A stretch of 25,752 nucleotides of DNA, taken from the IMG/VR virus record IMGVR_UViG_3300023297_001550, positions 1 to 25,752 of that record. One strand, 5' to 3'. Numbering within the stretch: position 1 is the stretch's first letter; every line of letters begins with the position of its first letter. This DNA is from a virus. Of this stretch, positions 5,601 to 24,255 are shown one piece after another. The translations under genes and the position numbers were made by a program. Under the pieces are notes generated by a model that saw nothing but the letters and a program-made list of their open reading frames with translations, had not been told where the DNA came from and searched no databases.

Positions 5601-6145
5601 AAGAATTTTTTAACCTTGGATTATCCCCAAAAGAACAAAAAATCTATCTCTTAGCGGAGATAGACAAGGCCATAACCGAGTATGCTGGTGATAAACCGTA
5701 TTCAGATGGAAATGGATTACGGCCAAAGGATGAATATGAAGGGGATCTCTGGTTTGAGTTTAAAATCCCGGACAGCATCGAATATAACATATGGTCTGGA
5801 GCGTTACTTGATTTTAGAAAAAATGCCGTCAAAATGTCAGTGACAGTAACGAACAAAAAGAATAAAAAACCAAGATCTCTTGAGCAAATAAATTACGGCG
5901 CAAGAACAAGGCTATATAAAAAATTAATCGGGAAACCATTGTCAAAAGCTACCATTGACGATATCAAAGAAGCACTTGAACAAGGTGATATTTTGACAAA
6001 TAATGTTTTAAGTCAATTAGCATTAGATGAAGATTTCCAAATTTTCAACCCAAACGATTTTTTAAATTGGATTCTGAGTGGGGCTATTTCTAAAAATGTA
6101 TATAACGCCTTAAAAAAAGAGGCAACAAAATGTCAACTACCATAA
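5513..6145 (+). CDS. Hypothetical protein overlapping the primase tail; Toprim-like C-terminus
   Basis: 210 residues. It starts inside the primase gene in another frame with only a weak AGAGGTG site, so the exact start is uncertain. The first 29 residues are dictated by the primase-coding overlap and are basic (RQRKRSGRVRTKGS). The central part (residues 30-190) matches nothing I recognise. The last 17 codons (KNVYNALKKEATKCQLP) align with the primase segment EKLYYQLTARGVECQIL, and the stop TAA falls where the primase has a Glu codon. After that stop the same frame continues as the rest of a primase tail (to 6217). The gene may therefore be a chimera whose end came from a second primase. Function unknown. 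Confidence 0.6.
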   Translation: MSDIRGRQRKRSGRVRTKGSEPINARPTLKEFFNLGLSPKEQKIYLLAEIDKAITEYAGDKPYSDGNGLRPKDEYEGDLWFEFKIPDSIEYNIWSGALLDFRKNAVKMSVTVTNKKNKKPRSLEQINYGARTRLYKKLIGKPLSKATIDDIKEALEQGDILTNNVLSQLALDEDFQIFNPNDFLNWILSGAISKNVYNALKKEATKCQLP

Positions 6146-6217
6146 AACAACCAAGGAAAAGATCCCGGCGAACTAAGCCAGGAGGAAGCAAAAAAACTGA
6201 TGTGGGATTTGCTATAA
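6092..6217 (+). pseudogene. Diverged second copy of the primase Toprim tail
   Basis: Read in the frame of the 5513-6145 gene and through its TAA stop, this stretch gives KNVYNALKKEATKCQLP, stop, NNQ, then GKDPGELSQEEAKKLMWDLL and a stop at 6215-6217. The primase ends GKDPGELGQKEANQLMHDLL after EKLYYQLTARGVECQIL-EDDK. Matching codons differ mostly at third positions (CCG/CCC, GGA/GGC, GAG/GAA, CTT/CTA), so the copy evolved as a functional Toprim before it was broken. It has one stop in place of Glu and Asn-Asn in place of Asp-Asp. The segment is now covered by the end of one gene and the start of another in a different frame. Confidence 0.75.
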
Positions 6218-6357
6218 AATCTGTTGACCTGGCCGCAGTCCATTGTGGTGATAAACCACTATACTGTAAAAAACATAGTCTATGGTACATGTCCTGGCTG
6301 GATGAATGCCCAATATGCGCCGGCGAAAATATGACCCCTGCAACAAAGGAGAAATGA
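6130..6357 (+). CDS. Small putative zinc-binding protein overlapping the primase-tail copy
   Basis: 75 residues. AAAGAGG lies upstream of ATG 6130. The first 29 codons overlap the decayed primase tail in another frame, giving a basic start (QPRKRSRRTKPGGSKK) that mirrors the N-terminus of the 5513 gene: both begin ATGTCA, and RKRS is at residues 9-12 in both. The unique part has HCGDKPLYCKKHSLWY and DECPICAGENM, a likely zinc site of Cys/His pairs. It overlaps the previous gene by 16 bases. Function unknown. Confidence 0.55.
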   Translation: MSTTIKQPRKRSRRTKPGGSKKTDVGFAIKSVDLAAVHCGDKPLYCKKHSLWYMSWLDECPICAGENMTPATKEK

Positions 6358-6360
6358 ATT

Positions 6361-6603
6361 ATGGCAAGAAGAGGTTTAAATTCTGTTTGGTTGAATAAAA
6401 TACGCGATAAATTGAATGCGATTGAGTCCAATGGTTTTGACCCAATAATCCTTTCTTACAATCCCGCTGCCCAATGGTTAATAACAAATATAGCAAAAAT
6501 GGGATATATTCCAAAGGTTGAAAATCTCGGAGCCGGAGTCAAACGAATAAGCATAAAAGGAACCTGCTGCAAAACTTGTGGGCAAACAACAAAGGAGAAA
6601 TAA
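6361..6603 (+). CDS. Small hypothetical protein with CCxxC end
   Basis: 80 residues, not recognised. It follows AAAGGAG and starts three bases after the previous stop. The N-terminal half is helical and basic (MARRGLNSVWLNKIRDKL); the C-terminus carries GTCCKTCG, possibly a metal site or half-site for dimerisation. No membrane segment or catalytic motif is visible. Confidence 0.55.
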   Translation: MARRGLNSVWLNKIRDKLNAIESNGFDPIILSYNPAAQWLITNIAKMGYIPKVENLGAGVKRISIKGTCCKTCGQTTKEK

Positions 6604-6605
6604 AA

Positions 6606-6905
6606 ATGGATAGTAAAACAAGAGAAGAATTAACAGAAAATGTAATTGATTGTATTCACTCCCTGGATCATTCCTTACAACAATGCAAAGGCGGAGATAT
6701 GGAAAGCACAGAAACCTTAAAATCTATGACCATGTTTAATTTCATTTGTCATGTAGCCGCCCCAAACGGGATCAGGTTTCACTATGAAAGCCGGTCCTAT
6801 GAAGAACAAACCAAAGAAAAATATTCAACAGCGGGCGGAAAAATGATACAAGTAAAATCAAAAGAGGATCTGAATGATATCGAGGTCCACACCCAGCCAG
6901 ATTAA
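6606..6905 (+). CDS. Hypothetical protein
   Basis: 99 residues. ATG 6606 is chosen because AAAGGAG ends about 10 bases before it; an in-frame upstream ATG at 6576 lies within the previous gene and lacks a site. The N-terminal half is acidic and helical; the centre has FICHVAAPNGIRFHYESR, and the C-terminus looks like short beta strands. It resembles no family I can name. It is the last gene before the 6906-7067 gap. Confidence 0.6.
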   Translation: MDSKTREELTENVIDCIHSLDHSLQQCKGGDMESTETLKSMTMFNFICHVAAPNGIRFHYESRSYEEQTKEKYSTAGGKMIQVKSKEDLNDIEVHTQPD

Positions 6906-6921
6906 TAAAAATTAAATTATT

Positions 6922-6950
6922 TTTAAAATTATTTAAAAAATTTATATAAT
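6922..6950 (+). promoter_or_regulatory. Promoter, TTTAAA-17-TATAAT class
   Basis: TTTAAA at 6922-6927 and TATAAT at 6945-6950 with a 17-base spacer, identical in hexamers and spacing to the sites at 4411, 11431 and 24207. The surrounding gap is extremely AT-rich. The expected start near 6957 would give a leader of about 110 bases that contains the cloverleaf-like element at 6971-7031, before the initiator gene. Confidence 0.65.
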
Positions 6951-6970
6951 ATAAAAGTAGATGTATTTTT

Positions 6971-7031
6971 CGGGCGTGTCATATGGCCATATGACCAGCG
7001 AAGGGATCGCTCATCCCTTCGCCCACGCTTG
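6971..7031 (+). promoter_or_regulatory. Cloverleaf-like element (two hairpins closed by an outer stem)
   Basis: An 18-base perfect palindrome at 6978-6995 (GTCATATGGCCATATGAC) is followed by a 10-bp stem 6998-7007/7013-7022 with a 5-base loop. The flanks 6971-6978 and 7024-7031 pair over 8 positions (6 Watson-Crick, 2 G-U), closing a three-way junction of 61 bases. It lies in the expected leader of the replication initiator gene, 28 bases before its AGGAG. It could be a leader RNA controlling translation or a DNA structure at a replication origin; no U-run follows, so it is not a terminator. Confidence 0.6.
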
Positions 7032-7067
7032 ATTATCAATAATGAGCAAATGGACTTCAGGAGAATT

Positions 7068-8432
7068 ATGAGCAATCAAAAAAGAGAGAGAATTTTAGCG
7101 GGTGGTGGTTTTTTATCAATAAATAAAATCTTTTTGAAACATCTTGGTGCGGATATGTCATGTTTTTTATCTATCCTTCTTGAATGGCATAATTATTTAA
7201 TCGAAAAAAATAAAATGCCAGAAGATGGATATTTCTTTTTAGAACAAGTCCGTATTGAAAAAACAATCAGGTTATCAAGTTTCCAACAACGTCAAATTTT
7301 AAACTCTTTTAAAGAATGGGGTTTTATACTTGCAGAACGCAGAAACATCCCTCCTAAATATTGGTATTTCATTAATGAAGATCGGCTAATACAGTTTTTT
7401 AATTACTTAAACTTTAAAGGTTTAGAAATTAAAGGTTTAAACATTAAAGAACTAAATCTATATTATAATAAGACTAATTTTAATAATACTAATATAGATA
7501 CTAATACTTCTAAAGAAGTATTTAAAAGGGTTTCTAACGAAACCCCAAATGATTCTTTAATTCCAAGAAGGAAAAGAACTTCCAGAGACAGATTACAATT
7601 ACAACAAAAGTTTAGAAGAAAAGATATAAGAAAAACCTCCATTAATCATTCCATACCCGGTTACGTGATAAATATAATTAATCAATGGAATAAAAATCTA
7701 TCAACAACAACCCATAAATTAGATTTAGAAAATCCCTCCAAAACAATCAAATCCATTCATCAATATTTAACTCAATTAAAGACCGGTAAAATGTCCGGTT
7801 TAAATTCTATCTGGTTAAAAAAGAATAAAATTCCAAATTCCTTTTTAACCCGTAAATGGACCGAAGAAGAATTATGTACTGGAATTGAGCATCTATCTAA
7901 ATATTCTCAGAACGATTATTGGCCCCCAAATAAAATAAATAATCCCTGGATCAAATCCCTGCCAGGTTTATTATATAATTCGACGCAAAGAAATTCCCTG
8001 TTCTTGCAAGTCATGAATAATCCACCAAAGAAATTATCAGAACAAAAAATAATTAATCATCCAAATATGGCAGCATTATTTATCAAGGCAAATATATGGA
8101 TGGATAGAACCCCTCCAAGTGAATGTGATGTTGACCGGGTTTTGGATGGCCTATTCCCTTTTGTCCGCGAAATGAAAATAAAAATTAAAAGGATGGAGGG
8201 CAAGGTTGATCCAAGAAGTCTAAATGGGTCAGGCCGGTTCACATCTATGTTTTGGCAGCGTTATATCGAATTTATTGAAACCTCCAGTATTGTTTTGAAT
8301 GATGCCTGGCAACTAAACATAAAAGGCTGGGTGTTTGAAAAATATTTAAAAGACATCTGGGATCAGATACAATCCGATGGTTCCACCCTAAATCCTCTAA
8401 TAGTTCTAAAAAAGCTTTTAAATAACCTTTAA
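7068..8432 (+). CDS. Putative winged-helix replication initiator / replisome organiser
   Basis: 454 residues from ATG 7068, which has AGGAG at 7059-7063; earlier in-frame starts (TTG 7029, ATG 7050) lack a site and 7029 overlaps the cloverleaf. The N-terminal 100 residues (SCFLSILLEWHNYLIEK; DGYFFLEQVRIEKTIRLSS; QILNSFKEWGFILAERR; PPKYWYFIN) follow the pattern of phage replication proteins of the O/DnaD/RepA type: a winged helix with a conserved tryptophan/tyrosine wing ending in a WYxIN strand. A basic Thr/Asn-rich linker follows (about 135-195), then a helical C-terminal domain that I do not recognise. Its position just before the DnaB-like helicase suggests origin binding and helicase loading, by analogy only. 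Confidence 0.6.
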   Translation: MSNQKRERILAGGGFLSINKIFLKHLGADMSCFLSILLEWHNYLIEKNKMPEDGYFFLEQVRIEKTIRLSSFQQRQILNSFKEWGFILAERRNIPPKYWYFINEDRLIQFFNYLNFKGLEIKGLNIKELNLYYNKTNFNNTNIDTNTSKEVFKRVSNETPNDSLIPRRKRTSRDRLQLQQKFRRKDIRKTSINHSIPGYVINIINQWNKNLSTTTHKLDLENPSKTIKSIHQYLTQLKTGKMSGLNSIWLKKNKIPNSFLTRKWTEEELCTGIEHLSKYSQNDYWPPNKINNPWIKSLPGLLYNSTQRNSLFLQVMNNPPKKLSEQKIINHPNMAALFIKANIWMDRTPPSECDVDRVLDGLFPFVREMKIKIKRMEGKVDPRSLNGSGRFTSMFWQRYIEFIETSSIVLNDAWQLNIKGWVFEKYLKDIWDQIQSDGSTLNPLIVLKKLLNNL

Positions 8433-8441
8433 ACCCTTACT

Positions 8442-8464
8442 TACGGCCAAAGGATAGGGCCGTA
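8442..8464 (+). terminator. Short GC hairpin after the initiator gene
   Basis: TACGGCC (8442-8448) pairs perfectly with GGCCGTA (8458-8464) around a 9-base loop, 10 bases after the initiator stop. Only three T residues follow before AAA, so termination would be weak; it may instead protect the 3' end of the upstream transcript or lie just ahead of the next promoter. Confidence 0.45.
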
Positions 8465-8522
8465 TTTAAACGATCTACTATAAATGTATATAAGGGTATA
8501 GATAAAAAATTATCGTTTAAAT
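8464..8522. promoter_or_regulatory. Promoter-like region bracketed by an 11-bp inverted repeat
   Basis: ATTTAAACGAT (8464-8474) and its perfect complement ATCGTTTAAAT (8512-8522) flank an AT-rich core. The left arm contains TTTAAA (8465-8470), and TATAAG at 8489-8494 lies 18 bases further on, a near match to the TTTAAA-17-TATAAT promoter class. As at 4419-4476, a CGAT/CTA arm precedes the core and TAGAT/ATCG follows it, suggesting a shared regulator or a shared RNA fold. It would serve the helicase-queDE block. Confidence 0.5.
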
Positions 8523-8550
8523 TTGAGCGAATAACAAAGGGAGAGCAAAA

Positions 8551-8838
8551 ATGAAGATAGAAGAATATATTAATAAACGCGAAAAAATAAAACAAAAGGC
8601 ATTTAAAGATATAACTAAATTAATGTATCAATATGCAGAAAAAAATAATTCTGTAAAAATTGGAGATATAATCACAGATCATATTGGATCTATAAAGGTC
8701 GAAAAAATATTTTTATATAGAAGTGAATTAGAACCATCTTTTATTTATTCGGGGAAAAGATATACTAAATTCAACAAGCCGTTTAAATCAGGAGAAAAGA
8801 CCCGCATATATCAAATAAATTTGAGAGATAATTCATAA
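8551..8838 (+). CDS. Hypothetical protein ahead of the helicase
   Basis: 95 residues, not recognised. AAAGGGAG precedes the ATG. A lysine-rich helical N-terminus (EYINKREKIKQKAFKDITKL) is followed by a beta-rich part (VKIGDIITDHIGSIKVEKIF) that reads like a small SH3-like or barrel domain. The stop overlaps the helicase ATG by one base (TAATG), so the two are probably translationally coupled. Confidence 0.6.
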   Translation: MKIEEYINKREKIKQKAFKDITKLMYQYAEKNNSVKIGDIITDHIGSIKVEKIFLYRSELEPSFIYSGKRYTKFNKPFKSGEKTRIYQINLRDNS

Positions 8839-10370
8839 TGGCAATTAATCGACGAAACCCTCCGGATGCTAAAATTGAGCGGAATATATTAACGGGCATG
8901 ATCATCAGTAATGATTTTCTATCGGGTATTAGGTCAATGTGGACCCCGACCTGCCTGCTGGCAAAGGACTCGCAAATAATAGGGCAATGGTGCATAGAAT
9001 ATTTTGACCAATACGAAGGTGCCCCCGGCCAGCATATTGAGGATATTTTCAGAAGCAAAAAAGACACAGATATATCCCCAGAAGTAGCAGACAATATTGA
9101 ATCATTCCTATCACAATTATCGGAAGAATATTCCAGAGGCCCAAAATTCAATGCCGCATATGCTTTGGATAGTGCGGAAAAACATTTCAGATTGTCTCAT
9201 CTGCAAAGTATCAAATATGATCTATCCAGGGCTGTAACAGCTGGCAGGATAGAAGAAGCAGAGGCATTGCTAAAAGGATTTGAAAGAGTTGAGAGGGTGA
9301 GAGCAAAAGGTGTTGATCCTTTACGAGATAAAGAAGCTTTGAAAAATGCATTCAATCCTCAATCCTCAGATATTCTTTTTCAATTACCCGGCGAACTTGG
9401 GGCAACAATCGGGCCATTTGAACGTAATCATTTATTCGGAGTCATAGGACAACAGGGAATTGGCAAAACATGGTGGCTATGGTGGATAGCTGAACGAGCT
9501 GCTATGGCTGGGCTAAATGTCGTCTTTGTGTCTTTGGAAATGACAGAGCGACAAATGATCAAACGAATTCAATCAGGGATAACCGGTCTACCCAAGAAAA
9601 AGTATGCCGGGAATATAAGGGTGCCGGTGTTTGATTGCACTTTGAATCAAATCGGTGAATGTTCAAAAAGAGAATCAAAAATACCGTTATGGAATCCGAA
9701 TAAAGAGGATGGTGAGAAACCCACTTTTGAAACAGCTCCCAGGAATTATGTTCCATGCACCAAATGCAAAGGCACCTACAAATTTGATATGAATTCCTGG
9801 TGGAGAACAATTACCAGGGAAGAAATAAGTGCCGCCAAAGTTCTGAAAAAAGCAAATAAAATGCAACAGTTTTTAAAACGATCTGGTAAAATTAAATTGG
9901 TTTCATATCCGCCCCAGACCTTAACAATATCCGAAATGAAAGCCTATCTATATAATTTAGAGCATTACGAAAATTTTATTGTGGATGTATTGGTGACAGA
10001 TTATGCCGATGAATTCTTACCGGAGGATCAATATGGTCAGTATCGACATAGCATCTCCGGCATATGGGCCGGACATAAGGCTATTGCAGGGGATAGGAAA
10101 ATTGCAGTAGTGACTGGCTCACAATCAAACACTGCCCGGACTGGTAAGGATATTCAAAAAGGGGACTGGGCTGAAGATATTTCTAAACTTGGGAAGATTG
10201 ATGGGGCAATGGCGATTAACCAACCCGAATGTGATAAAAAACGAAACCTGGCAAGAATCAAAATGCTGAAACTAAGGCATGATGAAGAAATTGAATCAAC
10301 AGTTACGGTTTTACAACAGCTTCAAATTGGCAAGATATACCTTGATAGCTGCGTAGGAGAAATAAAATAA
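8838..10370 (+). CDS. DnaB-like replicative helicase with a zinc-finger insertion
   Basis: 510 residues. The N-terminal helical domain (residues 1-150) resembles the DnaB N-domain/linker. The RecA-like core has Walker A GQQGIGKT at 204-211, followed by NVVFVSLEMTERQM, the DnaB/RadA-type H1a pattern, and Walker B VLVTDYADE with Asp388. Unusually, four cysteines (267, 275, 307, 310; the last pair in PCTKCKG) lie between these motifs in a segment absent from standard DnaB, suggesting a zinc-binding insert. The conserved C-terminal core continues with TGSQSNTARTG and KMLKLRHDEE. It should unwind the phage fork as a hexamer and pair with the primase at 4719 and the initiator at 7068. ATG overlaps the previous stop. 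Confidence 0.87.
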   Translation: MAINRRNPPDAKIERNILTGMIISNDFLSGIRSMWTPTCLLAKDSQIIGQWCIEYFDQYEGAPGQHIEDIFRSKKDTDISPEVADNIESFLSQLSEEYSRGPKFNAAYALDSAEKHFRLSHLQSIKYDLSRAVTAGRIEEAEALLKGFERVERVRAKGVDPLRDKEALKNAFNPQSSDILFQLPGELGATIGPFERNHLFGVIGQQGIGKTWWLWWIAERAAMAGLNVVFVSLEMTERQMIKRIQSGITGLPKKKYAGNIRVPVFDCTLNQIGECSKRESKIPLWNPNKEDGEKPTFETAPRNYVPCTKCKGTYKFDMNSWWRTITREEISAAKVLKKANKMQQFLKRSGKIKLVSYPPQTLTISEMKAYLYNLEHYENFIVDVLVTDYADEFLPEDQYGQYRHSISGIWAGHKAIAGDRKIAVVTGSQSNTARTGKDIQKGDWAEDISKLGKIDGAMAINQPECDKKRNLARIKMLKLRHDEEIESTVTVLQQLQIGKIYLDSCVGEIK

Positions 10371-10391
10371 CCAATAAAAAGGAGAAAGAAA

Positions 10392-10775
10392 ATGGTATCA
10401 ATAACAAAGATTTATGAATTTGAAGCCGCCCATCATTTGCCCCATCATAAAGGAGCTTGCCATCAACTGCATGGGCATTCGTATCGTTTAGAAATAACGA
10501 TATCAGGGTCAATTCAGGTTGACGGTCCAAGCAGAGGAATGATTATGGATTTTTCTGTATTGAAAGGAATGATTGAAAACCTACCAATAGCTACACTTGG
10601 CAAATTAGATCATAGCAATCTCAACGATTATTACGACAATCCAACCGCCGAAATCATGGTGCATAAAATAGCAAGAGATATAGAATTAATGCTGTGGGAG
10701 GAATCAATTACACTTGAGCGGGTGCGGCTGTGGGAAACAAAAACCTCATACGCAACATGGGAGAATTACAAATGA
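10392..10775 (+). CDS. queD: QueD, 6-carboxytetrahydropterin synthase
   Basis: 127 residues, the usual length for the 6-pyruvoyl-tetrahydropterin synthase family. The zinc ligands are His14 in FEAAHHLP and His27 and His29 in QLHGHSY; catalytic Cys23 lies in ACHQLHGH. The LDHSNLND motif supplies His74, PTAE and VRLWET (Glu115) complete the active site, all matching the bacterial QueD pattern. It converts dihydroneopterin triphosphate to 6-carboxytetrahydropterin, the second step toward 7-deazaguanines (preQ0). AAAAGGAG lies 7-10 bases before the ATG. It overlaps queE as ATGA, so the two are coupled. In phages these genes usually serve 7-deazaguanine DNA modification rather than tRNA queuosine. 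Confidence 0.93.
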   Translation: MVSITKIYEFEAAHHLPHHKGACHQLHGHSYRLEITISGSIQVDGPSRGMIMDFSVLKGMIENLPIATLGKLDHSNLNDYYDNPTAEIMVHKIARDIELMLWEESITLERVRLWETKTSYATWENYK

Positions 10776-11425
10776 TAAATATAAACGAAATATTCCAAAG
10801 CATCAATGGCGAAATTACTGCTTGGCATCAAGGATCATTGACGACATTCATCAGATTTGCCGGGTGTAATCTCTCATGTACCTACTGCGACGCCGCATCT
10901 GCCAGCGAGATCAATTCCAAATTATTACCATATCAGATTGTGGATATTGTTGAAAAGACAGGATGCAAACAGGTAACAATAACCGGAGGCGAACCCACCT
11001 TACAATATGATGAATTGCAGGAATTGCTCTATGGTTTAGTTTTGGCATTGCAATGCAAAATAACCGTTGAGACAAATGGAACCCATCCAATCCCGGAATG
11101 GATGGAAGATCATATTTCCTGGATAGTTGATTACAAATTTGACTATTCCCACAAAATGATTTATGGCAATTTTGAAAGATGCATCGATAATAATTGGTTG
11201 AAATTTGTAATAGATAAGGAACAGGATTTGCCTATGCTTGAATATTTATTTTCTACTCACCCAATTTTGCATAAAGCAAACGTCGCCATCGGCACCACCG
11301 GCAATGTTCCTCATGCTCAGATTGTTGATTTTCTGATAGACCGGAAACTTTTTAATTGTGTCCTAAACTATCAAATTCATAAGAAAATCTGGCCGATCAG
11401 AAAGGAGGGCAAAAAAATATTGTAA
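10772..11425 (+). CDS. queE: QueE, 7-carboxy-7-deazaguanine synthase (radical SAM)
   Basis: 217 residues from ATG 10772; an upstream in-frame ATG at 10730 lies inside queD and is not needed. The N-terminus INEIFQSINGE and the CxxxCxxC cluster motif (Cys32, Cys36, Cys39 in GCNLSCTYCD) are typical of QueE, as are TITGGEPTLQ, VETNG and the C-terminal QIHKKIWP. It uses SAM and a 4Fe-4S cluster to contract the QueD product to 7-carboxy-7-deazaguanine. The ATGA overlap with queD indicates coupled translation. QueC, FolE and a DNA-inserting DpdA are not in this window, so later steps would come from elsewhere in the phage or from the host. Confidence 0.93.
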   Translation: MININEIFQSINGEITAWHQGSLTTFIRFAGCNLSCTYCDAASASEINSKLLPYQIVDIVEKTGCKQVTITGGEPTLQYDELQELLYGLVLALQCKITVETNGTHPIPEWMEDHISWIVDYKFDYSHKMIYGNFERCIDNNWLKFVIDKEQDLPMLEYLFSTHPILHKANVAIGTTGNVPHAQIVDFLIDRKLFNCVLNYQIHKKIWPIRKEGKKIL

Positions 11426-11430
11426 GAAAA

Positions 11431-11459
11431 TTTAAATTTTTTTGATTTAAAACTATAAT
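11431..11459 (+). promoter_or_regulatory. Promoter, TTTAAA-17-TATAAT class, for the structured RNA
   Basis: TTTAAA at 11431-11436 and TATAAT at 11454-11459 with a 17-base spacer, then ATAGAT as in the site at 24207. It lies just after queE and would start transcription near 11466, giving an RNA of about 300 bases up to the intrinsic terminator at 11710-11767. Confidence 0.65.
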
Positions 11460-11465
11460 ATAGAT

Positions 11466-11767
11466 GAAAGGTATTTTAATTAATTTTATTTCAACGTAAA
11501 AATTGACGTAGCGAAAGGAGGATGTCATGCACCAATAAATTTGGTAACACCCTGCTCAAGTAGCAAATAGATTGCTTGTGCGGCCGACGGAACAAGATTG
11601 ACGACCGTCCTTGCCGCCTGGTCCCGGATGATTCATCGACATTGGCTGCACCGGTTAAATCCGGCAGAACCAACCGGGAAATCTAAGCAATAGCACTTGG
11701 GCAGGTTCCAATCCTGCCCCGGCCAAAGGAACAATCACCCATAGGGGTTGCCGGGGCAGGATTTTTT
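11466..11767 (+). ncRNA. Unassigned structured RNA (about 300 bases) in a 400-base gene-free gap
   Basis: No convincing gene lies between 11426 and 11827. The stretch 11550-11765 is clearly richer in G and C than the surrounding DNA and folds into successive stems: 11531-11535/11541-11545; 11562-11566/11572-11576; 11580-11584/11613-11617 enclosing 11586-11590/11605-11609; 11622-11627/11674-11679 enclosing TTGG-CTG..CCGG/CCGG-CAG..CCAA (11642-11673); and 11699-11705/11713-11719. It has its own promoter and ends in a strong terminator. AAGGAGG at 11515-11521 is followed by ATG 11527, encoding only MHQ before a stop; this may be a leader peptide or a decoy ribosome site. I do not recognise a known RNA class: it lacks the conserved cores of tmRNA, RNase P and group I introns as far as I can see. 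Confidence 0.6.
11699..11767 (+). terminator. Intrinsic terminator with a competing hairpin
   Basis: AATCCTGCCCCGGC (11710-11723) pairs perfectly over 14 bp with GCCGGGGCAGGATT (11750-11763), and a T run follows (11762-11767): a strong intrinsic terminator. The 5' arm can instead pair with GGGCAGG at 11699-11705 to make a 7-bp hairpin with loop TTCCAAT (11706-11712). The two hairpins are mutually exclusive because both use 11713-11719, the layout expected of an attenuator or riboswitch. It may simply be the end of the structured RNA, or it may control read-through into the gene at 11828. Confidence 0.75.
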
Positions 11768-11827
11768 AAAAAACAAAAATAAATAACCAATATAATAACC
11801 GAACAAAATTAAAAGGAGAATTTGAAA

Positions 11828-12430
11828 ATGCTTAAAAAAGACGTAACAAAGAAAATGCTGGTAGAAATCGCAGGCGCACTGAACAAGGTGATGGCCTATG
11901 AATCACCCATCGCCACTGACCGGAAAGTCCTCCGGAAAGACCTGTATGATGAAGTCGCAGATGCCGCCCAGGATATTGAACCCGCCGATCTTGAAAACGA
12001 AGCATTTACCCCTGACATCGTGACCTGGCTGAAAGTGATAGGCTGGGAAGCACCTGTTGCAACATCTGATGAGGAAACCGAGCCCGATCCCACAGAGATT
12101 GAAACTGAACCAGAAGAAACCGAGCCTGAAGATGCCCCGGAGCCCAAAAAGGAACCGGCAAAAGAAAAAAAGACTCCTGCCAAAAAGACTCCTGCCAAAA
12201 AGACTCCTGCCAAAGCAGACCCCGACGCCAAAAAAGATGAATTCGGATTTGGTATCGGCACCAAAAGAAACCTTTTTGCAGAATCCATTCGGGAAAATCC
12301 CATGACAATGGCCGAAGTTAAACAGGAAGACTGGAATGACCCGCCGCAATCATTTTATCAGGCATGGAGTGTTATCAAGGCGTCCGGCAAGGGTAAAACT
12401 GACGACAAAACAATGTCGATTTCGGAATAA
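11828..12430 (+). CDS. Acidic/lysine-rich linker protein with KKTPA repeats
   Basis: 200 residues. ATG 11828 lies about 9 bases after AAAGGAG; an in-frame TTG at 11822 is too close to it. An N-terminal helical domain (residues 1-75) is followed by a very acidic Glu/Pro/Thr stretch (about 80-112), then a basic repeat (KKTPAKKTPAKKTPAK) reminiscent of histone H1-like tails. A C-terminal domain follows (FGFGIGTKRNLFAESI; EDWNDPPQSFYQAWSVI). The opposed charges suggest a flexible linker that binds nucleic acid or partner proteins, but no function is recognised. It sits between the structured RNA and a hairpin at 12449, so it could be expressed alone. Base composition is more GC-rich than the following methyltransferase gene. 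Confidence 0.7.
   Translation: MLKKDVTKKMLVEIAGALNKVMAYESPIATDRKVLRKDLYDEVADAAQDIEPADLENEAFTPDIVTWLKVIGWEAPVATSDEETEPDPTEIETEPEETEPEDAPEPKKEPAKEKKTPAKKTPAKKTPAKADPDAKKDEFGFGIGTKRNLFAESIRENPMTMAEVKQEDWNDPPQSFYQAWSVIKASGKGKTDDKTMSISE
12167..12211 (+). repeat. Three tandem 15-base repeats
   Basis: AAAAAGACTCCTGCC occurs three times head to tail (12167-12181, 12182-12196, 12197-12211) without a mismatch, encoding the KKTPA repeat of the surrounding gene. Perfect identity at third codon positions points to recent expansion by replication slippage, so copy number probably varies between related phages. Confidence 0.9.
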
Positions 12431-12448
12431 TTCTTCCCCTTTCCAAAT

Positions 12449-12494
12449 ATTAATCCACCTATGATAATACAAAAAATGTTATGGGTGGATTAAT
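12449..12494 (+). terminator. 14-bp hairpin after the KKTPA gene
   Basis: 12449-12462 pairs with 12481-12494 over 14 positions with one G-T wobble (core TAATCCACC/GGGTGGATTA), with an 18-base AT-rich loop. TATTAT follows rather than a clean T run. It lies 18 bases after the stop of the gene at 11828 and 30 bases before the methyltransferase, so it is probably a terminator or mRNA-end stabiliser; both strands could use it. Confidence 0.6.
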
Positions 12495-12523
12495 TATTAT
12501 CCTGCATAGGAAATAACCAAATA

Positions 12524-13513
12524 ATGGGCATGATTCAAACAAATGAATTTAAAGGGTTACTTGGCGATATTATCCCGGAGACTCCAAAAATTAATAGGGA
12601 TAAATTATCTAATTTTCTTTATGAGAATTTAAAAGATATTTCTTTGATTGAGTTAGTTGGGTTATTAACAAATAAATATTCTGAAATCATAGAATATGTT
12701 AATTTATGCAAGGGGCTGAATACCTGCCAAAAAACATCTTTATTATTTAATCCACATCGACTTGATACAAAAACAAATTATTCAAAAGCATCCATTTATG
12801 AATCTTTAAAAAACAAATCATTTATAAATGGATTAGCACGGGCTTCTATCTTTAAAAATGGGAAAGTCAATGAATTATTATATCAAGTTCTTCAATTAGG
12901 AATAAATGGGATATCATATATAAATGAGTTCCCTCCACATAAATCAAGAGATTTGGCATATCAATTTGGGCTAAATTCAGAATCTAAAATATTAGACCCA
13001 TGCGCAGGTTGGGGTGGCAGAATGATCGGATTTTCCATTGTTTGTAATAATTATGAAGCGTTTGAGCCCTCTATAAAAACATATAATGGATTATTGAAAT
13101 TAGGAAAATTTATTCAAGGATTTAGAAATGAATTTAATCCTATTGTCCATTGCCTCCCATTTGAAGAATCAAGATTAAGAAAAAATAAATATGATTTCGC
13201 TATGACTTCACCTCCATATTATGACACAGAAAGATATTCTGGCGAAGAAACAAATTCATTAAACAGATATAAAACTTTTGAAAAATGGACAAATAATTTT
13301 TATTTACCATTAATCGAGAAAACAATGGGGTCCTTGAAACCAAATTGCACATTTGTTTTAAATATCGGATCAAGAAAATACCCATTAAATAAATTATTAT
13401 TATCTAATTTTACCAAGCAATACGAAATAAAAAAAATGAAATTTTCAATTAGTGGCAAGGCCGGATTAAACAAAAAAGGCGAAGGCGAAACATTCTATTC
13501 TATAACCAAATAA
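12524..13513 (+). CDS. DNA methyltransferase (amino-methylating, motif I before motif IV)
   Basis: 329 residues. The SAM-binding motif I is ILDPCAGWGGRM with Asp158, and the catalytic motif IV is TSPPYYDTERY at 228-233. The order I then IV differs from the beta-class enzyme encoded at 22794. SPPY-type motifs methylate exocyclic amino groups (N4-cytosine or N6-adenine); the target sequence cannot be read off. The first 150 residues are helical and may carry target recognition. No cognate nuclease is adjacent, so self-protection or regulation is more likely than restriction. It is markedly AT-richer than its neighbours and its ribosome site is weak (AGGAAA about 10 bases upstream), which suggests later acquisition. 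Start could also be ATG 12530. Confidence 0.85.
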   Translation: MGMIQTNEFKGLLGDIIPETPKINRDKLSNFLYENLKDISLIELVGLLTNKYSEIIEYVNLCKGLNTCQKTSLLFNPHRLDTKTNYSKASIYESLKNKSFINGLARASIFKNGKVNELLYQVLQLGINGISYINEFPPHKSRDLAYQFGLNSESKILDPCAGWGGRMIGFSIVCNNYEAFEPSIKTYNGLLKLGKFIQGFRNEFNPIVHCLPFEESRLRKNKYDFAMTSPPYYDTERYSGEETNSLNRYKTFEKWTNNFYLPLIEKTMGSLKPNCTFVLNIGSRKYPLNKLLLSNFTKQYEIKKMKFSISGKAGLNKKGEGETFYSITK

Positions 13514-13526
13514 GGAGAAAATAAAC

Positions 13527-14594
13527 ATGGCAAGACAAAGAAGGAAAGCAGCACCACAACAAACCAAACCAGCCCAAAAAGAAAACATTGTATTGAAAAA
13601 GGATATCACCAAAGCCCTGGAAGCGGTCAAACCGGGAATTGCCGGGTGTAACGACCTTTCTGATCAATCAGAATTGGTGATATTTGCCGATGATAAATTG
13701 ATATCTTTCAATGATCAATTATCGATATCATACCCAATTCAAACAGGATTAACAGGGAGTATTTATGCAAATGAAATTCTTCAATTTGTAAAAAAAGCCC
13801 CGGAAAATGAAATCAAGATTGAGCTGGATGAATCCAATGAAAAAGGAAACCAATTCATTTTCCAATCAGGCAAGGTCAAGGCCGGATTTTATATTTCAAT
13901 TGTCGATCCTCCCAAATTAGACATTGGGAAAAAATGGGAAGAACTACCTCCGAATTTTTCAGACGCCATTTCTCTTTGCTACCCAACAGCAGCAACCAAA
14001 TCAGATAGAGGAGTTTTAACCTGCATCCAAATAACCGACAACCTGGTCATAAGTTGTAATAATTATCAGGCGTCCAAATACCAGTTAGCTGATTGCCCCG
14101 TGTCCGGATTAATACAGGCCGAATCAGCAAAAATCCTTGCCGCCTTTAAACCTGTTGATTATCAAAAAGGAACGGGCTCCTGGAACCATTACCGGTCAAG
14201 CGACAATGCAATAATTTCAATTCTGTCTATTGGAGAAGAATACCCGACAGACAAAGTTATGTCGTTATTCGCAATAGACGGGGAGTCAATTGAATTGCCG
14301 GATAATCTGAAAGAAGTTATTGAGCGCCAGGAAATCATGGCAACCGATTCGGATTCATCCCCGTTAATAGAAATTAAGATCAACAAAAACACCATGGAAT
14401 TCAATGCTGCTAATATTAAAGGGTGGATTTCCGAGACTGTTGAAACGACTAAAAACAAAAAGGAATTGAGTTTTCATGTGAACCCAATAACCTTGAAAAG
14501 TGTGTTGGCTGATATCCAGGACGTTACGGTGAATGAATCCATCCTGAAAATTGATTCTGATATTTTTTCTTATGCCATAGCCCTGAAGGTGTAA
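13527..14594 (+). CDS. Beta sliding clamp-like protein
   Basis: 355 residues, close to the roughly 366 of bacterial DnaN. After a basic N-terminus (MARQRRKAAPQQTKPAQK) the sequence follows the clamp pattern of repeated strand-helix units: SIYANEILQFVKKAPENEIK, then ISLCYPTAATKSDRGVLTCI with LVISCNNYQASKYQL, the region that in DnaN reads as DERPVLNGV plus TDGHRLA. A third unit runs from about residue 205 to the end. The similarity is of pattern rather than close sequence. Its place directly before the PolIII alpha gene and the presence of a clamp-loader ATPase at 24565 support a processivity role. AAGGAG lies 9 bases before the ATG. Confidence 0.75.
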   Translation: MARQRRKAAPQQTKPAQKENIVLKKDITKALEAVKPGIAGCNDLSDQSELVIFADDKLISFNDQLSISYPIQTGLTGSIYANEILQFVKKAPENEIKIELDESNEKGNQFIFQSGKVKAGFYISIVDPPKLDIGKKWEELPPNFSDAISLCYPTAATKSDRGVLTCIQITDNLVISCNNYQASKYQLADCPVSGLIQAESAKILAAFKPVDYQKGTGSWNHYRSSDNAIISILSIGEEYPTDKVMSLFAIDGESIELPDNLKEVIERQEIMATDSDSSPLIEIKINKNTMEFNAANIKGWISETVETTKNKKELSFHVNPITLKSVLADIQDVTVNESILKIDSDIFSYAIALKV

Positions 14595-14597
14595 ATT

Positions 14598-16886
14598 ATG
14601 AATTTTTGCCACTTGCATTTACACACGGAATATTGTCTTGCCGGGGATACAATAATTTATAATTGCATCCAAAATGGCAAAAAGAATAGAAAAGATTATA
14701 CTCTGCCTCATAATTGCAAAACAATAAAATATTTATATGAGGCAGAGTATTCAAAAGAAAGAGGAAGAACAGCAAAAAAATATCCAATAAAAGTCTGGAA
14801 TGGATCTAAATTTGTAAGATCAAAAATAAAAAAAATCTCCAGATCATGCCCAAAACAGCTATATGAAATTTTAACAGAAAATGGAAAAAAAATAAGAACA
14901 TCTAAAAATCATAAATTTCTTAGCGCAATGGGTTGGAGAAGATTGTCTGAATTAGAAGTTGGTGATTTATTAGCGTGCAACGGACAAAAAAAATATGAAG
15001 ACAAAGAATGGTTGCTTAAAAAATATATTGAAGAAAATTTAAACCAACAACAAATAGCAGATATTTATAATGTCAGTAGAGACGTTATAAAGAAATTTCT
15101 AAAAAAATATAACATCCATAAAACAAAAAATGAATGGATGAAAGGCCATTTTGTTTCAGATCAATGTCGGGGAAAAATAAGCAAAATAAAATTAGAAATA
15201 AGAAAAAATTTAATTAATGAAATTCCATCTTCATTAAGCACAAGCAGAAGTCGGGTTAATCGTAGATGGTATTTAGAAAAAAAGAAATGCAATAGATGTG
15301 AATCAAAGAAGAATCTGCTTATTCACCATAAAGACCGAGACCCCATTAATAATAAAATTGAAAATTTAGAAGTCTTATGCAAATCATGCCATGAATTTGA
15401 ACACGCCAGATGTCCACTCACCATAAGATACGAAAAAATTATTTCGATAAAAAAGGATAAAATAGAAGAAACATACGACATAGAAGTATTCCATCAATCG
15501 CATAATTTTATTGCCAATGGCTTTGTGGTTCACAACTCACAATTGGATGGGGTCGGTTCCCCAAAACAGTATGCCAAACGAGCCAAAGAAATGGGCTTTG
15601 AATATCTGGCTATGACTGATCATGGAAATTGCGATGGAGCTATCCAATTCCAGAAGGCTTGTAAGGCAGAAGGCATCAAATCCGTAATCGGTTGTGAAAT
15701 GTATATTGTGCCTTATATGGACGCGAAACACAAGGGCGAAAAGCGAGGGCATATAACGGTATTAGTCAAGGACTTATCGGGCTGGGAAACTCTTCTAAGG
15801 CTGCTTACCAAGGCAAATTTAGAAGGGTTCTACCACAAACCCAGGATAGATTATGAATCCATGCTCAATGTTGATTTATCCGGCCTGATTATTATGACCG
15901 CCTGTGCGGGATCATTTTTACATTTAGATGGATCGATTGATTTTTTATGTGATCTTATCCAAAATAAAGTTGAATGTTATTACGAAATAATGCCTCATAA
16001 TATTCCTGCCCAAGAAAAAATACATAAAATTATTGAACAAGTTTATGACGAAATAGATTTACCATTCGCCGCAACCAATGACACCCACTATATTAATCGG
16101 GGTGATTGGCAAGCCCAGGAAGTATTATTGGCTATTCAATCCAAGGCAAAATGGAAGGATGAAAACAGGTTTAAATTTGGATTCAAGGGTTTGCATCTAC
16201 GATCTGAAAAAGAGATGGTCCGGGCATTTCAAAAACAAGGTTATTGGTCAAATAAAATTATAAAAGAAGCAATGGACAATACGATTAAAATTGCTGAAAA
16301 ATGCTGTGATTTTGTTATCCCAAAACAAGATATATCTTTGCCAGAGCCTCCAGGAACGAAACATCGAAACAAAGATCATATTACGGCCTCCGCCAATGAT
16401 GATCAAGAATTATCTTATCTTATTTACAGTAGCAATAAAGAACCCTTATTGGAGAATAAAATTTATTCAGATAGGCTTGATTACGAATTTGATATTATTT
16501 CCCAAAAGGGATTTTCAAGATATTTTCTCATTGTTGTTGATCTCCTTAATTGGTGTGATAAAAATGATATCATGTTTGGCCCCGGCAGGGGTTGTTTTAC
16601 TCCGGATTCAAAAATAATTTGTTCATCTCATAATAAAATAGAATATAAAAATATATCAAGTATCGAAACTGGAGATAATGTTATTTGTCATGATGGAACA
16701 ACAAATAAAGTCATTGATAAATTACAATATGATATTGAAGAAGAAATTATTGAAATAGAAACGATAGACGGTAGAATTATTGAATGCACATTAGACCATA
16801 AAATAATGACAGATAAAGGATGGATTGAAGCGCAATATTTGAACCCGACTTATCAAATATTAGATTGGAGAAAAAACAATGGATGA
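14598..16886 (+). CDS. dnaE: DNA polymerase III alpha, N-terminal gene: PHP domain, intein 1, and N-half of intein 2
   Basis: 762 residues. Residues 1-12 (CHLHLHTEY) and 314 onward (SQLDGVGSPKQY; LAMTDHGNCDGAIQF; SVIGCEMYIV) form the PHP domain of a C-family polymerase, interrupted by intein 1 at residues 13-313. The polymerase domain then starts (FSRYFLIVVDLLNWCD; FGPGRG). At residue 666 intein 2 begins directly after GPGRG, and its N-half ends at the stop 16884-16886. Host-type extein in this gene is 364 residues. The rest of the enzyme is in the gene starting at 16879, in another frame. AAGGTG precedes the ATG, 3 bases after the clamp stop. Without splicing of both inteins the polymerase would be non-functional. 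Confidence 0.9.
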   Translation: MNFCHLHLHTEYCLAGDTIIYNCIQNGKKNRKDYTLPHNCKTIKYLYEAEYSKERGRTAKKYPIKVWNGSKFVRSKIKKISRSCPKQLYEILTENGKKIRTSKNHKFLSAMGWRRLSELEVGDLLACNGQKKYEDKEWLLKKYIEENLNQQQIADIYNVSRDVIKKFLKKYNIHKTKNEWMKGHFVSDQCRGKISKIKLEIRKNLINEIPSSLSTSRSRVNRRWYLEKKKCNRCESKKNLLIHHKDRDPINNKIENLEVLCKSCHEFEHARCPLTIRYEKIISIKKDKIEETYDIEVFHQSHNFIANGFVVHNSQLDGVGSPKQYAKRAKEMGFEYLAMTDHGNCDGAIQFQKACKAEGIKSVIGCEMYIVPYMDAKHKGEKRGHITVLVKDLSGWETLLRLLTKANLEGFYHKPRIDYESMLNVDLSGLIIMTACAGSFLHLDGSIDFLCDLIQNKVECYYEIMPHNIPAQEKIHKIIEQVYDEIDLPFAATNDTHYINRGDWQAQEVLLAIQSKAKWKDENRFKFGFKGLHLRSEKEMVRAFQKQGYWSNKIIKEAMDNTIKIAEKCCDFVIPKQDISLPEPPGTKHRNKDHITASANDDQELSYLIYSSNKEPLLENKIYSDRLDYEFDIISQKGFSRYFLIVVDLLNWCDKNDIMFGPGRGCFTPDSKIICSSHNKIEYKNISSIETGDNVICHDGTTNKVIDKLQYDIEEEIIEIETIDGRIIECTLDHKIMTDKGWIEAQYLNPTYQILDWRKNNG
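14634..15536 (+). mobile_element. Intein 1: in-frame HNH intein in the DnaE PHP motif
   Basis: 301 residues inserted between Tyr and Ser of HLHTEY/SQLDG. It starts with Cys (CLAGDTIIYN) and ends GFVVHN before Ser+1, the residues needed for splicing. Block B is present as IRTSKNHKFLSAMGWRRLSE. A helix-turn-helix-like segment (QQQIADIYNVSRDVIKKF) and an HNH nuclease follow: CNRC at 231-234, LLIHHKDRD, NKIENLEVLCKSCH ending at 265. Block F is ETYDIEVFHQSHNFIANG. All parts are in one frame, so this looks like a normal, potentially mobile large intein. The N-terminal extein is only 12 residues. Confidence 0.92.
16593..16886 (+). mobile_element. Intein 2, N-terminal half
   Basis: 97 residues beginning with Cys (CFTPDSKIICSS) right after GPGRG of the polymerase. 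Block A, the middle strands (ISSIETGDNVICHDG) and block B (GRIIECTLDHKIMTDKGWIE, with TLDH) are intact. The frame ends 20 residues later at TGA 16884-16886. The point of breakage, after block B, is where natural split inteins are divided and where endonucleases normally sit. The C-half is at the end of 16879-17622. Confidence 0.9.
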
Positions 16887-17622
16887 AATTTGGAAGGATG
16901 TCAATTTTATCGACAACAAAGGAGATATAATTAATTTTTCGGGATTGTACCAAATTTCAAATATGGGAAGAATTAAAAGTCTTTCTCGCGATATAAAAGC
17001 AAGCGAATCTGGAACCTTGAGAAAAACCGAAGAAAAAATTATACGAGGATCGTCTTCTGGTTTAAATAATTATATTGACGTTAATTTATGGTGGAACAAT
17101 ATTTCTTACACAATCCAAAAAAGCAGGTTAGTAGCTTATATGTTTTTAACCAATCCGGATAATAAGCCATGTGTAGAACATCTAAATACAATAAGGACAG
17201 ACGATAGAGTTGAAAATTTAAGATGGTGTACATATTTAGAAAATAACAATAACCCAATAACCAAACAAAAACAGCGTGTATCAAATAGAATTGCAAATAC
17301 CCCCAAGAAAAGGAAAAAGATTTCCAAAACATTAAAAAAATATTTTCTAAAAAACAAAAACCCATGGGCAACAGAAATAATAAATACAAAAACAAATGAG
17401 AAATTTGACTCTATAAAAAAGGCGGCTAACAGTATAAATAAAGACAGCGAATGGCTTGCAAGAAAATTAAGAGGTCGTTGTAAAAACAATACTGATTTTC
17501 AATATGTTAAAAAATACGCACAAATAAAATCGGTTAAAAGAAAAAAATATAAAGGGTTGGTATATGATTTAACAGTCAAAAACAAACACAGCTATAATAT
17601 TGAAGGATTAGCTGTTCATAAT
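16879..17622 (+). mobile_element. Homing endonuclease (NUMOD4-HNH-NUMOD1) joined to the C-half of intein 2
   Basis: 248 residues at the front of the second dnaE gene. A NUMOD4-like start (IWKDVNFIDNKG; GLYQISNMGRIKSLSRD) is followed by an HNH motif of the VEHLNTIRTDDRVENLRWCT type near residues 95-115. A lysine-rich linker leads to a NUMOD1-like DNA-binding segment (FDSIKKAANSINKDSEWLAR). The last ~35 residues are intein block F and G (GLVYDLTVKNKHSYNIEGLA, then VHN before Ser+1). No in-frame ATG separates endonuclease from C-intein, so they are expected to be one polypeptide. Confidence 0.88.
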
Positions 17623-19275
17623 TCAGTCGGTGGAAGTCTTATCGCATATTTATTAGGATTTACAGAAACAGATCCAATCAAATATGGATTATATTTTTCC
17701 AGGTTTATTTCAGAGGAACGCAACGATCTCCCGGATATTGACATCGATTTTGAGGATCGGAAAAGACATCTGGTAATTGAATATCTTGAAAAGACTTATG
17801 GCAAATATAACACTGCTGGAATATCCACTTTCCTGAGAATGAAAGATCGGGCTATAATCCACGATGTTGGCAAGGTGTTTGATGTGCCATACAAAACAGT
17901 AAATGAATTCGCCCAAAGTATTGTTCCTTACCGGGACGATATGAATACCCTTGAAAAGGTTTTGGAACTGGATGAAGGGCAGGAATTCAAAAAGCAATAT
18001 CCAGAAGTGGTCCGCAATGCACTAAAATTAAAAGGAACCATAAAATCAAGTGGTCAACATGCTGCTGCTGTTGTCATATCTAAAGAAGACCTCCGGAAAA
18101 CTAATCGCTGTAATTTGGCTGTCAGATCCAAGCGAATTATGGTTAATTTTGATATGGAAGATAGTGAGTATTGCGGCTTGATGAAACTCGATATATTGGG
18201 CTTGAATACATTATCTGTGCTTGCTCAGACTAAAAAATTGATCAACAAAAAAGATTTCGAATTCAGAAATATTCCACTTGACGATCAAAATATTTTTACA
18301 ATGCTTTCCAGGGGCGAGACAGCGGGCGTATTCCAGTTGTCTGCCGTCCCATCTACAAAGTTATGTAAGGATATGGGGGTCAAGGAGTTCGTTGATATAC
18401 CGGCCATTCTGGCCCTTGTACGGCCTGGTCCGTTCTACTCCGGTATGACCGAAATGTATATTGAAAGATATCACGGGAAGAAGTATCAGAAAACCCATCC
18501 TATTTACGATTCCATTACAAAAGAAACATATGGACTTCTTGTCTATCAAGAACAAGTAATGGCTGTCATTTCTAAGATGGCCGGATTGCCGGAATCAACA
18601 GCGGATAAAATCAGAAAAATAATTGGCAAGAAAAGGGATTCGTCGGCATTTGAAGAATATAAAAAAATATTTATTAGAGGATGTTTGAAACAGAAAACTT
18701 TTTCCCGTAAACAAGCCCTCCAATTTTGGGCAGGACTTTTGGAATGGGCAAGCTACGGATTCTCGAAAAGTCACGCAACAGAATACGGGTTAATCTCATA
18801 CTGGACAGCATGGTTAAAATATCATTATCCATCTGAATTTATGGCTGCTGAATTAACATATGGGACAGGTAAAGAAGATATTGCAAACGAAGCCAGGAAA
18901 CGGGGTATCAAAATCATTACACCCAAAATAGGTTTTTCCGATGCTATTGAATGGAGGGTTGCTGATAAAATATTGTACGCTCCATTTATCGAAATAAAAG
19001 GTGTTGGTGAAAAGGAAGCCCATAAAATATTAAATCCAATATCCCAAAATTCGGGTGGTTTTTTTAATTTAAAAGATGTCGTGGCTATTTCAAAATCTTC
19101 TTTTTCGGGAACAACAGCCATAACATTGAGCAAAATAAAAGCCCATGATCAACATGAAGTTCCAGAAGAAAAGATTTTAAAGGAATATTTTTCAGAAGGA
19201 TTATTTATTACTCAAAAAGAATCTCCTATAAGTCGAAGGCCAAGAAGAAAAAACAGAGATGAGATCCCTTTCTAA
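16879..19275 (+). CDS. dnaE: DNA polymerase III alpha, C-terminal gene: endonuclease, C-half of intein 2, polymerase core
   Basis: 798 residues. ATG 16879 overlaps the upstream stop by 8 bases (ATGGATGA) and has GGAG at 16867-16870 with an 8-base gap, so it can initiate on its own. Residues 1-248 are the endonuclease and C-intein. From residue 249 (SVGGSLIAYLLGFTETDPI) the C-family polymerase core continues: PDIDIDF with Asp286 and Asp288, SGQHAAAVVIS, and KLDILGLNT with Asp438, the three catalytic aspartates. VRPGPF, YQEQVM and FSKSHATEY follow. Total extein from both genes is about 914 residues, shorter than E. coli DnaE (1160), lacking much of the C-terminal OB/tau-binding part. No proofreading exonuclease is visible in the window. 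Confidence 0.9.
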   Translation: MDEIWKDVNFIDNKGDIINFSGLYQISNMGRIKSLSRDIKASESGTLRKTEEKIIRGSSSGLNNYIDVNLWWNNISYTIQKSRLVAYMFLTNPDNKPCVEHLNTIRTDDRVENLRWCTYLENNNNPITKQKQRVSNRIANTPKKRKKISKTLKKYFLKNKNPWATEIINTKTNEKFDSIKKAANSINKDSEWLARKLRGRCKNNTDFQYVKKYAQIKSVKRKKYKGLVYDLTVKNKHSYNIEGLAVHNSVGGSLIAYLLGFTETDPIKYGLYFSRFISEERNDLPDIDIDFEDRKRHLVIEYLEKTYGKYNTAGISTFLRMKDRAIIHDVGKVFDVPYKTVNEFAQSIVPYRDDMNTLEKVLELDEGQEFKKQYPEVVRNALKLKGTIKSSGQHAAAVVISKEDLRKTNRCNLAVRSKRIMVNFDMEDSEYCGLMKLDILGLNTLSVLAQTKKLINKKDFEFRNIPLDDQNIFTMLSRGETAGVFQLSAVPSTKLCKDMGVKEFVDIPAILALVRPGPFYSGMTEMYIERYHGKKYQKTHPIYDSITKETYGLLVYQEQVMAVISKMAGLPESTADKIRKIIGKKRDSSAFEEYKKIFIRGCLKQKTFSRKQALQFWAGLLEWASYGFSKSHATEYGLISYWTAWLKYHYPSEFMAAELTYGTGKEDIANEARKRGIKIITPKIGFSDAIEWRVADKILYAPFIEIKGVGEKEAHKILNPISQNSGGFFNLKDVVAISKSSFSGTTAITLSKIKAHDQHEVPEEKILKEYFSEGLFITQKESPISRRPRRKNRDEIPF

Positions 19276-24215: not shown

Positions 24216-24235
24216 ATTTAAAAAATATATATAAT
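24207..24235 (+). promoter_or_regulatory. Promoter, TTTAAA-17-TATAAT class
   Basis: TTTAAA at 24207-24212 and TATAAT at 24230-24235, 17-base spacer, followed by ATAGAT as at 11431. It would drive the small zinc proteins and the clamp-loader gene. Confidence 0.65.
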
Positions 24236-24255
24236 ATAGATACAAGGAAATTAAT

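Follow-up and report, generated by a model that had tools for sequence, protein, structure and literature searches.

A conserved structured RNA with an intrinsic terminator upstream of a phage gene for a probable winged-helix protein

Architecture of the RNA and its flanking signals

A conserved, structured RNA, well supported by sequence comparison, occupies the gap at positions 11426 to 11827 of the 25,752-nucleotide viral stretch analyzed here (the window; IMG/VR record IMGVR_UViG_3300023297_001550). Reading and folding of this gap recovered every feature named in the initial annotation, and the element exceeds that description, in which the long closing helices P1 and P2 had been missed. 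With modest confidence, we favor a structured leader RNA whose terminator gates the downstream gene (11828 to 12430) for a probable winged-helix protein. The location, fold, conserved core, and covarying terminator come from sequence comparison, and we infer that the leader is transcribed, terminated, and regulated.

Scans of the viral contigs, run with QueE, the helicase, the polymerase, and the downstream protein, yielded seven that extend to the 5′ end of the 11828 gene: the window, 3300023435_001141 (L002), 3300025669_002761 (L003), 3300023257_001428 (L004), 3300033145_002283 (L010), 3300031227_015115 (L091), and 3300005915_004153 (L092). The RNA is present in all of these except L010 (6/7), and each of the six carriers has it directly 5′ of the same gene. 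Because L002, L003, and L004 are identical (320/320), the carriers comprise four distinct RNA sequences (window, L002, L091, and L092), referred to below as the four variants.

All parts of the element lie on the plus strand. The promoter-like site (TTTAAA-17-TATAAT, 11431 to 11459) matches at 10 of 12 positions and is the best of 11 promoter-like matches in the scanned 2.1 kb, where 5.6 were expected, which bears out the promoter annotated earlier. Its TATAAT and the upstream TTTTTTGATT are kept in L002, L091, L092, and L010. The exact 11-mer TATAATATAGA precedes genes at three places (window 11454 to 11464, window 24230 to 24240, and L010 6007 to 6017) and possibly belongs to a promoter consensus of the phage. 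Downstream, a Shine-Dalgarno sequence (AGGAGG, 11516 to 11521) and a mini-ORF encoding MHQ (ATG-CAC-CAA-TAA, 11527 to 11538) are present as annotated. All four variants have GGAGG, an ATG, and two or three further codons before a stop, with the peptides MHQ in the window, MHH in L002, and MKLH in both L091 and L092; the length difference is 3 nucleotides and in frame. The open reading frame is thus kept and the peptide is not.

In the minimum-energy fold, a single three-way-junction domain with a 155-nucleotide core spans 11551 to 11705, P1 and P2 closing it and P3 and P4 forming its arms. The local hairpins belong to one domain because the long helices P1 and P2 enclose them. The 5′ strand of P1 (strand 1, 11551 to 11564, with a bulged A11562) pairs with its 3′ strand (strand 2, 11693 to 11705), and the 5′ strand of P2 (11571 to 11577) pairs with 11685 to 11691. 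The nested stems reported before were found in both arms: P3 (11580 to 11617) has the stem 11580-11584/11613-11617 and a variable tip, P3b (11586-11590/11605-11609), and P4 (11622 to 11679) has the stem 11622-11627/11674-11679 and a variable tip at 11628 to 11673. The annotated 14-bp intrinsic terminator follows at 11710 to 11767, with its stem at 11710-11723/11750-11763 and a tract of six T at 11762 to 11767; the T tract is poor in L091 (ATTATTCC). Our terminator scan admits loops of 3 to 8 bases only and therefore did not list this terminator. The promoter scan found no plus-strand promoter-like site between the terminator and the gene; a weak TATAAT 3′ of the terminator, near 11790 to 11796, was read from the sequence.

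The fold of 11466 to 11767 has an energy of −101 kcal/mol (z = −3.42), and none of 100 shuffles was as stable. On both strands of all four variants z ranged from −2.7 to −5.8 (60 shuffles each), and across the folding tests of both strands a shuffle was as stable in 1 of 16 tests, with one such shuffle there. P1 together with the terminator makes up the minimum-energy fold in all four variants. Folding alone cannot pick the strand because both strands fold better than nearly all shuffles; the strand of the RNA is set instead by the U tract, the Shine-Dalgarno sequence, and the promoter. The equally good folding of both strands is also what an element acting in single-stranded DNA would display, for example a primosome site or a hairpin origin of replication next to the DnaB-like helicase, and in the window the region does adjoin the DnaB-like helicase and an O-like replication protein. 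We regard such a DNA-level element as very improbable. RNA-type signals are present (promoter, Shine-Dalgarno sequence, and a U tract behind a stem with covariation), P1 has a U-G pair in the window where L091 and L092 have U-A, there is no GC-skew switch here, and L010 lacks the element at the corresponding position. A replication origin was likewise rejected, with no skew switch and no iteron array in 6900 to 8900.

Core conservation, covariation, and the queDE neighborhood

Between the window and L091, the core is identical at 84 of 90 positions (segments of 33/36, 18/18, and 33/36), and unpaired bases share in it: the junction strands CTGG and AAATCT are retained, as are 4/5 positions of the AAATR bulge. 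The helicase of the same two contigs is identical at 390/509, 434/509, and 242/509 of codon positions 1, 2, and 3 (77, 85, and 48%). The tips are far less alike (4/26 in P3 and 20/40 in P4), and the folds indicate that they are replaced freely by other hairpin-forming sequence. A fixed core with free tips suggests an RNA that binds a ligand or a protein.

The homologous gaps were aligned and examined for covariation, as had been proposed, and the result differs among the helices. The terminator stem is paired in 98.2% of cells and has four pairs changed on both sides; none of 500 shuffles matched its covariation score, and no slid register comes near the true one. P1 contributes one compensatory pair (U-A to G-C), besides the U-G of the window that is U-A in L091 and L092. 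P2 is invariant except for one end pair, and P3 and P4 are almost invariant, so covariation neither supports nor opposes P2 to P4, where there is hardly any variation; the score of the whole structure was equaled by 96 of 500 shuffles. Slid registers of the whole structure pair at 30 to 46%, compared with 98.4% in the true register. The structured RNA is thus kept in the homologues, with the fold retained and with covariation in the terminator and P1.

The initial annotation had raised a 7-deazaguanine ligand on account of the neighboring queD and queE, and this suggestion did not hold. In the window group, queD-queE lies upstream of the promoter, and the RNA stands downstream of the genes that a preQ1/preQ0 riboswitch should precede. 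L091 and L092 have neither queD nor queE at the locus and retain the RNA, while another contig (L017) has helicase-queD-queE followed immediately by a different gene and has no copy of the RNA. The RNA and queDE are thus linked by position alone, and no Rfam preQ family matches the element. Despite the adjacency in the window, a 7-deazaguanine riboswitch of queDE is largely refuted, and we assign it a negligible probability. The last 25 bases of queE (AAAGGAGGGCAAAAAAATATTGTAA, window 11401 to 11425) recur exactly in L091 (∼1987 to 2011) and L092 (∼2214 to 2238), which suggests either that queDE was deleted or that those bases have a conserved role.

Searches for known families and further copies

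The absence of a match to a known RNA class, noted from the sequence before any database search, was sustained by the Rfam covariance search proposed at that time. At the gathering thresholds of Rfam 15, there were no matches in the window, L091, L092, or L010, and at E < 10 the window, L091, and L092 gave only sub-threshold, chance-level matches (scores of 10 to 17 against cutoffs of 40 to 93). ARAGORN predicted no tRNA or tmRNA genes. A TTCCAAT loop that had been described as T-loop-like does occur in the window and is not conserved (8 bases in L002, absent from L091 and L092), and a T-loop or tRNA-like identity was rejected on these two grounds. BLAST against 50,697 phage records and 72,556 plasmid records returned no homologue. 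A retron was discarded, no reverse transcriptase being recognized among the window genes scanned, which were a subset of its ORFs. An RNA antisense to the phage's own genes was discarded as well, there being no shared word longer than 12 nucleotides. None of the open-licence papers listed in literature searches on phage structured RNAs appears to describe the element.

Pattern scans added no members. An exact pattern of the TTCCAAT hairpin had no matches in the viral contigs. The pattern GGAACAAGATTGACGACC had four, among them one in L006, which falls in a coding frame and was dismissed as chance. The pattern CCTGGTCCCG-N30-60-CCGGGAAAT had six matches in the viral contigs, four of them known members; the candidates L122 and L123 were rejected, having no match to R1, the model described below, and, by eye, unrelated sequence. 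A slightly longer pattern gave 31 matches in the genome contigs, about the number expected by chance on our own estimate. The best two of the 31 by the model (L134, E = 0.098; L153, E = 0.11) lie largely or wholly inside reading frames and were also rejected.

R1 was built from the four distinct RNA sequences. Against 87 loci it matched L091 and L092 only, with one match per strand in each, and a further 54 loci yielded nothing credible. The 13 loci outside both scans (L001 to L009, L089, L090, L093, and L121) are the window's own locus, duplicates of known contigs, and L006. None of 21 whole virus records matched R1; of nine further records, five are known carriers, one had a chance-level match (E = 0.32), and three had no match.

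Leader function, competing hairpins, and the exchanged island

The leader reading is built on a comparison of gene order. Behind the helicase of L010 stands a similar promoter (TTTTTTTGATT...TATAATATAGA) that leads straight to the gene, ∼50 bases on, with no RNA at the corresponding point. In the window, L002, L003, L004, L091, and L092, a similar, conserved promoter is followed by the RNA, the terminator, and the gene, which places the RNA inside the leader of the 11828-12430 gene. Against a leader function stand L010, which does without the RNA here, the poor T tract of L091, the weak TATAAT beyond the terminator, and an antiterminator at chance level in L091 and L092. We propose that transcription would start at the 11431-11459 promoter, that the nascent RNA would fold into the three-way junction closed by P1 and P2, and that the 14-bp terminator would then stop most transcripts before the gene. 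Readthrough would be the sole route to expression of the gene, and termination would release a stable RNA of ∼300 nucleotides. In the window and L002, opening of P1 could favor readthrough because the 3′ strand of P1 also pairs with the 5′ arm of the terminator; candidate openers are ribosomes on the mini-ORF, a phage protein, or a ligand.

The competing pairing, described earlier as mutually exclusive hairpins, is clear in two of the four variants. Strand 2 (11693 to 11705) can pair either with strand 1, as P1, or with strand 3, the 5′ arm of the terminator. In the window, the competing hairpin joins 11699 to 11705, the antiterminator 5′ arm, to 11713 to 11719, its 3′ arm within strand 3, across the loop TTCCAAT. 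The energy of the 2:3 duplex was matched by 512 (window) and 1,460 (L002) of 20,000 shuffles of strand 2, compared with a chance level of 6,139 (L091) and 5,918 (L092). When strand 1 was blocked and the transcript was cut before strand 4, the window and L002 were the two variants in which the antiterminator formed. When the whole RNA was folded, the terminator won in all four variants, even with the first 30 nucleotides or strand 1 blocked, and a switch would therefore need cotranscriptional kinetics. The mutually exclusive hairpins thus appear real in the window, and as a conserved mechanism they are a candidate. Between P1 and the terminator (strands 2 and 3), L092 carries a hairpin-rich insertion of ∼80 bases (∼2531 to 2620) whose ends repeat GCCGG/CCGGC; read by eye, it could preserve the strand alternation.

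In attenuators of the trp type, a leader mini-ORF is followed by strands that pair as 1:2, 2:3, and 3:4, and the same succession is seen here. However, the mini-ORF ends ∼12 nucleotides before strand 1, its codons are not conserved, and L091 and L092 do not retain the 2:3 pairing. Counted from its first base, the stop is 15 to 16 bases 5′ of P1; a ribosome terminating there would be expected to leave strand 1 uncovered, which disfavors a trp-type mechanism. Protection or pacing is a possible role for the mini-ORF. Of the broader earlier suggestion of an attenuator, a riboswitch, or an abundant RNA, the structured RNA without an Rfam match stands and the 7-deazaguanine link does not; the mutually exclusive pairing is clear in the window and L002, and the T-loop is not conserved. 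The lambda 6S RNA/tR′ leader also consists of a promoter, a short terminated RNA, and a gene beyond. The order of promoter, RNA, and gene is the same here, but no recognized antiterminator gene is tied to the RNA.

That the default fold terminates would also suit a free-standing phage small RNA of ∼300 nucleotides that acts in trans, its core binding a host or phage protein or RNA and the gene being a mere neighbor. The RNA has its own promoter and a strong, covarying terminator, and the conserved unpaired bases of the core suggest a binding partner. This alternative is possible but doubtful: the RNA always stands directly before the same gene (6/6 carriers), and it has no match longer than 12 nucleotides elsewhere in the window, sense or antisense.

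The 200-amino-acid product of the downstream gene belongs to no Pfam, PHROG, or PADLOC family. A weak AlphaFold2 model built from five sequences (pLDDT 67.7) has a helical N-terminal domain, a disordered Lys-rich linker, and a winged-helix-like C-terminal domain (helix-helix-helix-strand-strand). Its best PDB match is the T4 MotA activation domain, a weak one (E = 0.14), followed by many other winged-helix proteins, and the model suggests that the product is probably a winged-helix DNA-binding protein. Among close relatives the gene after the RNA (window 11828 to 12430, L091 2413 to 2994, and L092 2746 to 3345) keeps its N-terminal domain and has unrelated C-terminal domains, consistent with modular exchange. 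The window and 3300023435_001141 have no mismatches in 5800 to 11299 and ∼14800 to 18444, and between these stretches lies a sharply bounded divergent island of ∼3 kb, running from the leader to the clamp gene (window 11470 to 14300 versus L093). It contains the RNA, the downstream gene, a DNA methyltransferase of a different type, and the start of the clamp gene. Recombination between co-occurring phages, or strain mixing in the assembly, would explain it.

That the RNA, the protein, and the next methyltransferase share one exchanged island between mismatch-free stretches would fit an RNA that is a partner of the downstream protein, either in autoregulation through the core or in a pair resembling abiF or type III toxin-antitoxin systems. 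The parts also follow the order of the RCd22-abiF leader of a Clostridioides difficile prophage, which consists of a phage promoter, a short structured RNA, an intrinsic terminator, and a protein gene reached by readthrough (PMC12373285). RCd22 (RF03085) is ∼100 to 130 nucleotides long, contains two abiF motifs, and is paired with a toxin gene, whereas our element has no sequence match to it, a downstream protein that is not Abi, and a 155-nucleotide three-way-junction core. A protein-partner role is unlikely: the protein has no match among toxin, Abi, or PADLOC families, Rfam includes the abiF motif yet gave no match, L010 has the protein without the RNA, and the C-terminal domains differ in L091 and L092 while the RNA core stays.

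For the preferred leader RNA, a second comparison is the putRNA of phage HK022, a nascent folded leader RNA that acts on transcription in cis (PMC9378689). The put RNA binds RNA polymerase and thereby suppresses termination at early genes; the comparison extends to the general logic only. Among the phage structured RNAs in the open-licence papers listed, the abiF RNA and putRNA appear to be the closest in logic. Tentatively, the element may represent a new class of phage structured RNA. Its three-way-junction core, with conserved unpaired bases, would bind one particular ligand or protein, its tips would exchange fast, and its terminator would serve as output, controlling a module of DNA-binding protein and DNA methyltransferase that co-occurring phages swap as a whole. 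It would then be a phage RNA regulator outside the Rfam 15 families, with freely replaced tips and a core that is better conserved than the adjoining replicative helicase is in its coding sequence. It would also allow two questions to be put to a defined example: which signals phage leader RNAs respond to, and why exchange joins a regulator to a DNA-binding protein and a methyltransferase.

Beyond the island, the ORF list indicates that two overlapping frames (window 14598 to 16886 and 16879 to 19275) share the DNA polymerase III alpha sequence and are interrupted by inserts resembling inteins or homing endonucleases, and the helicase gene that follows the polymerase (window 19310 to 21670) contains another insert of this kind.
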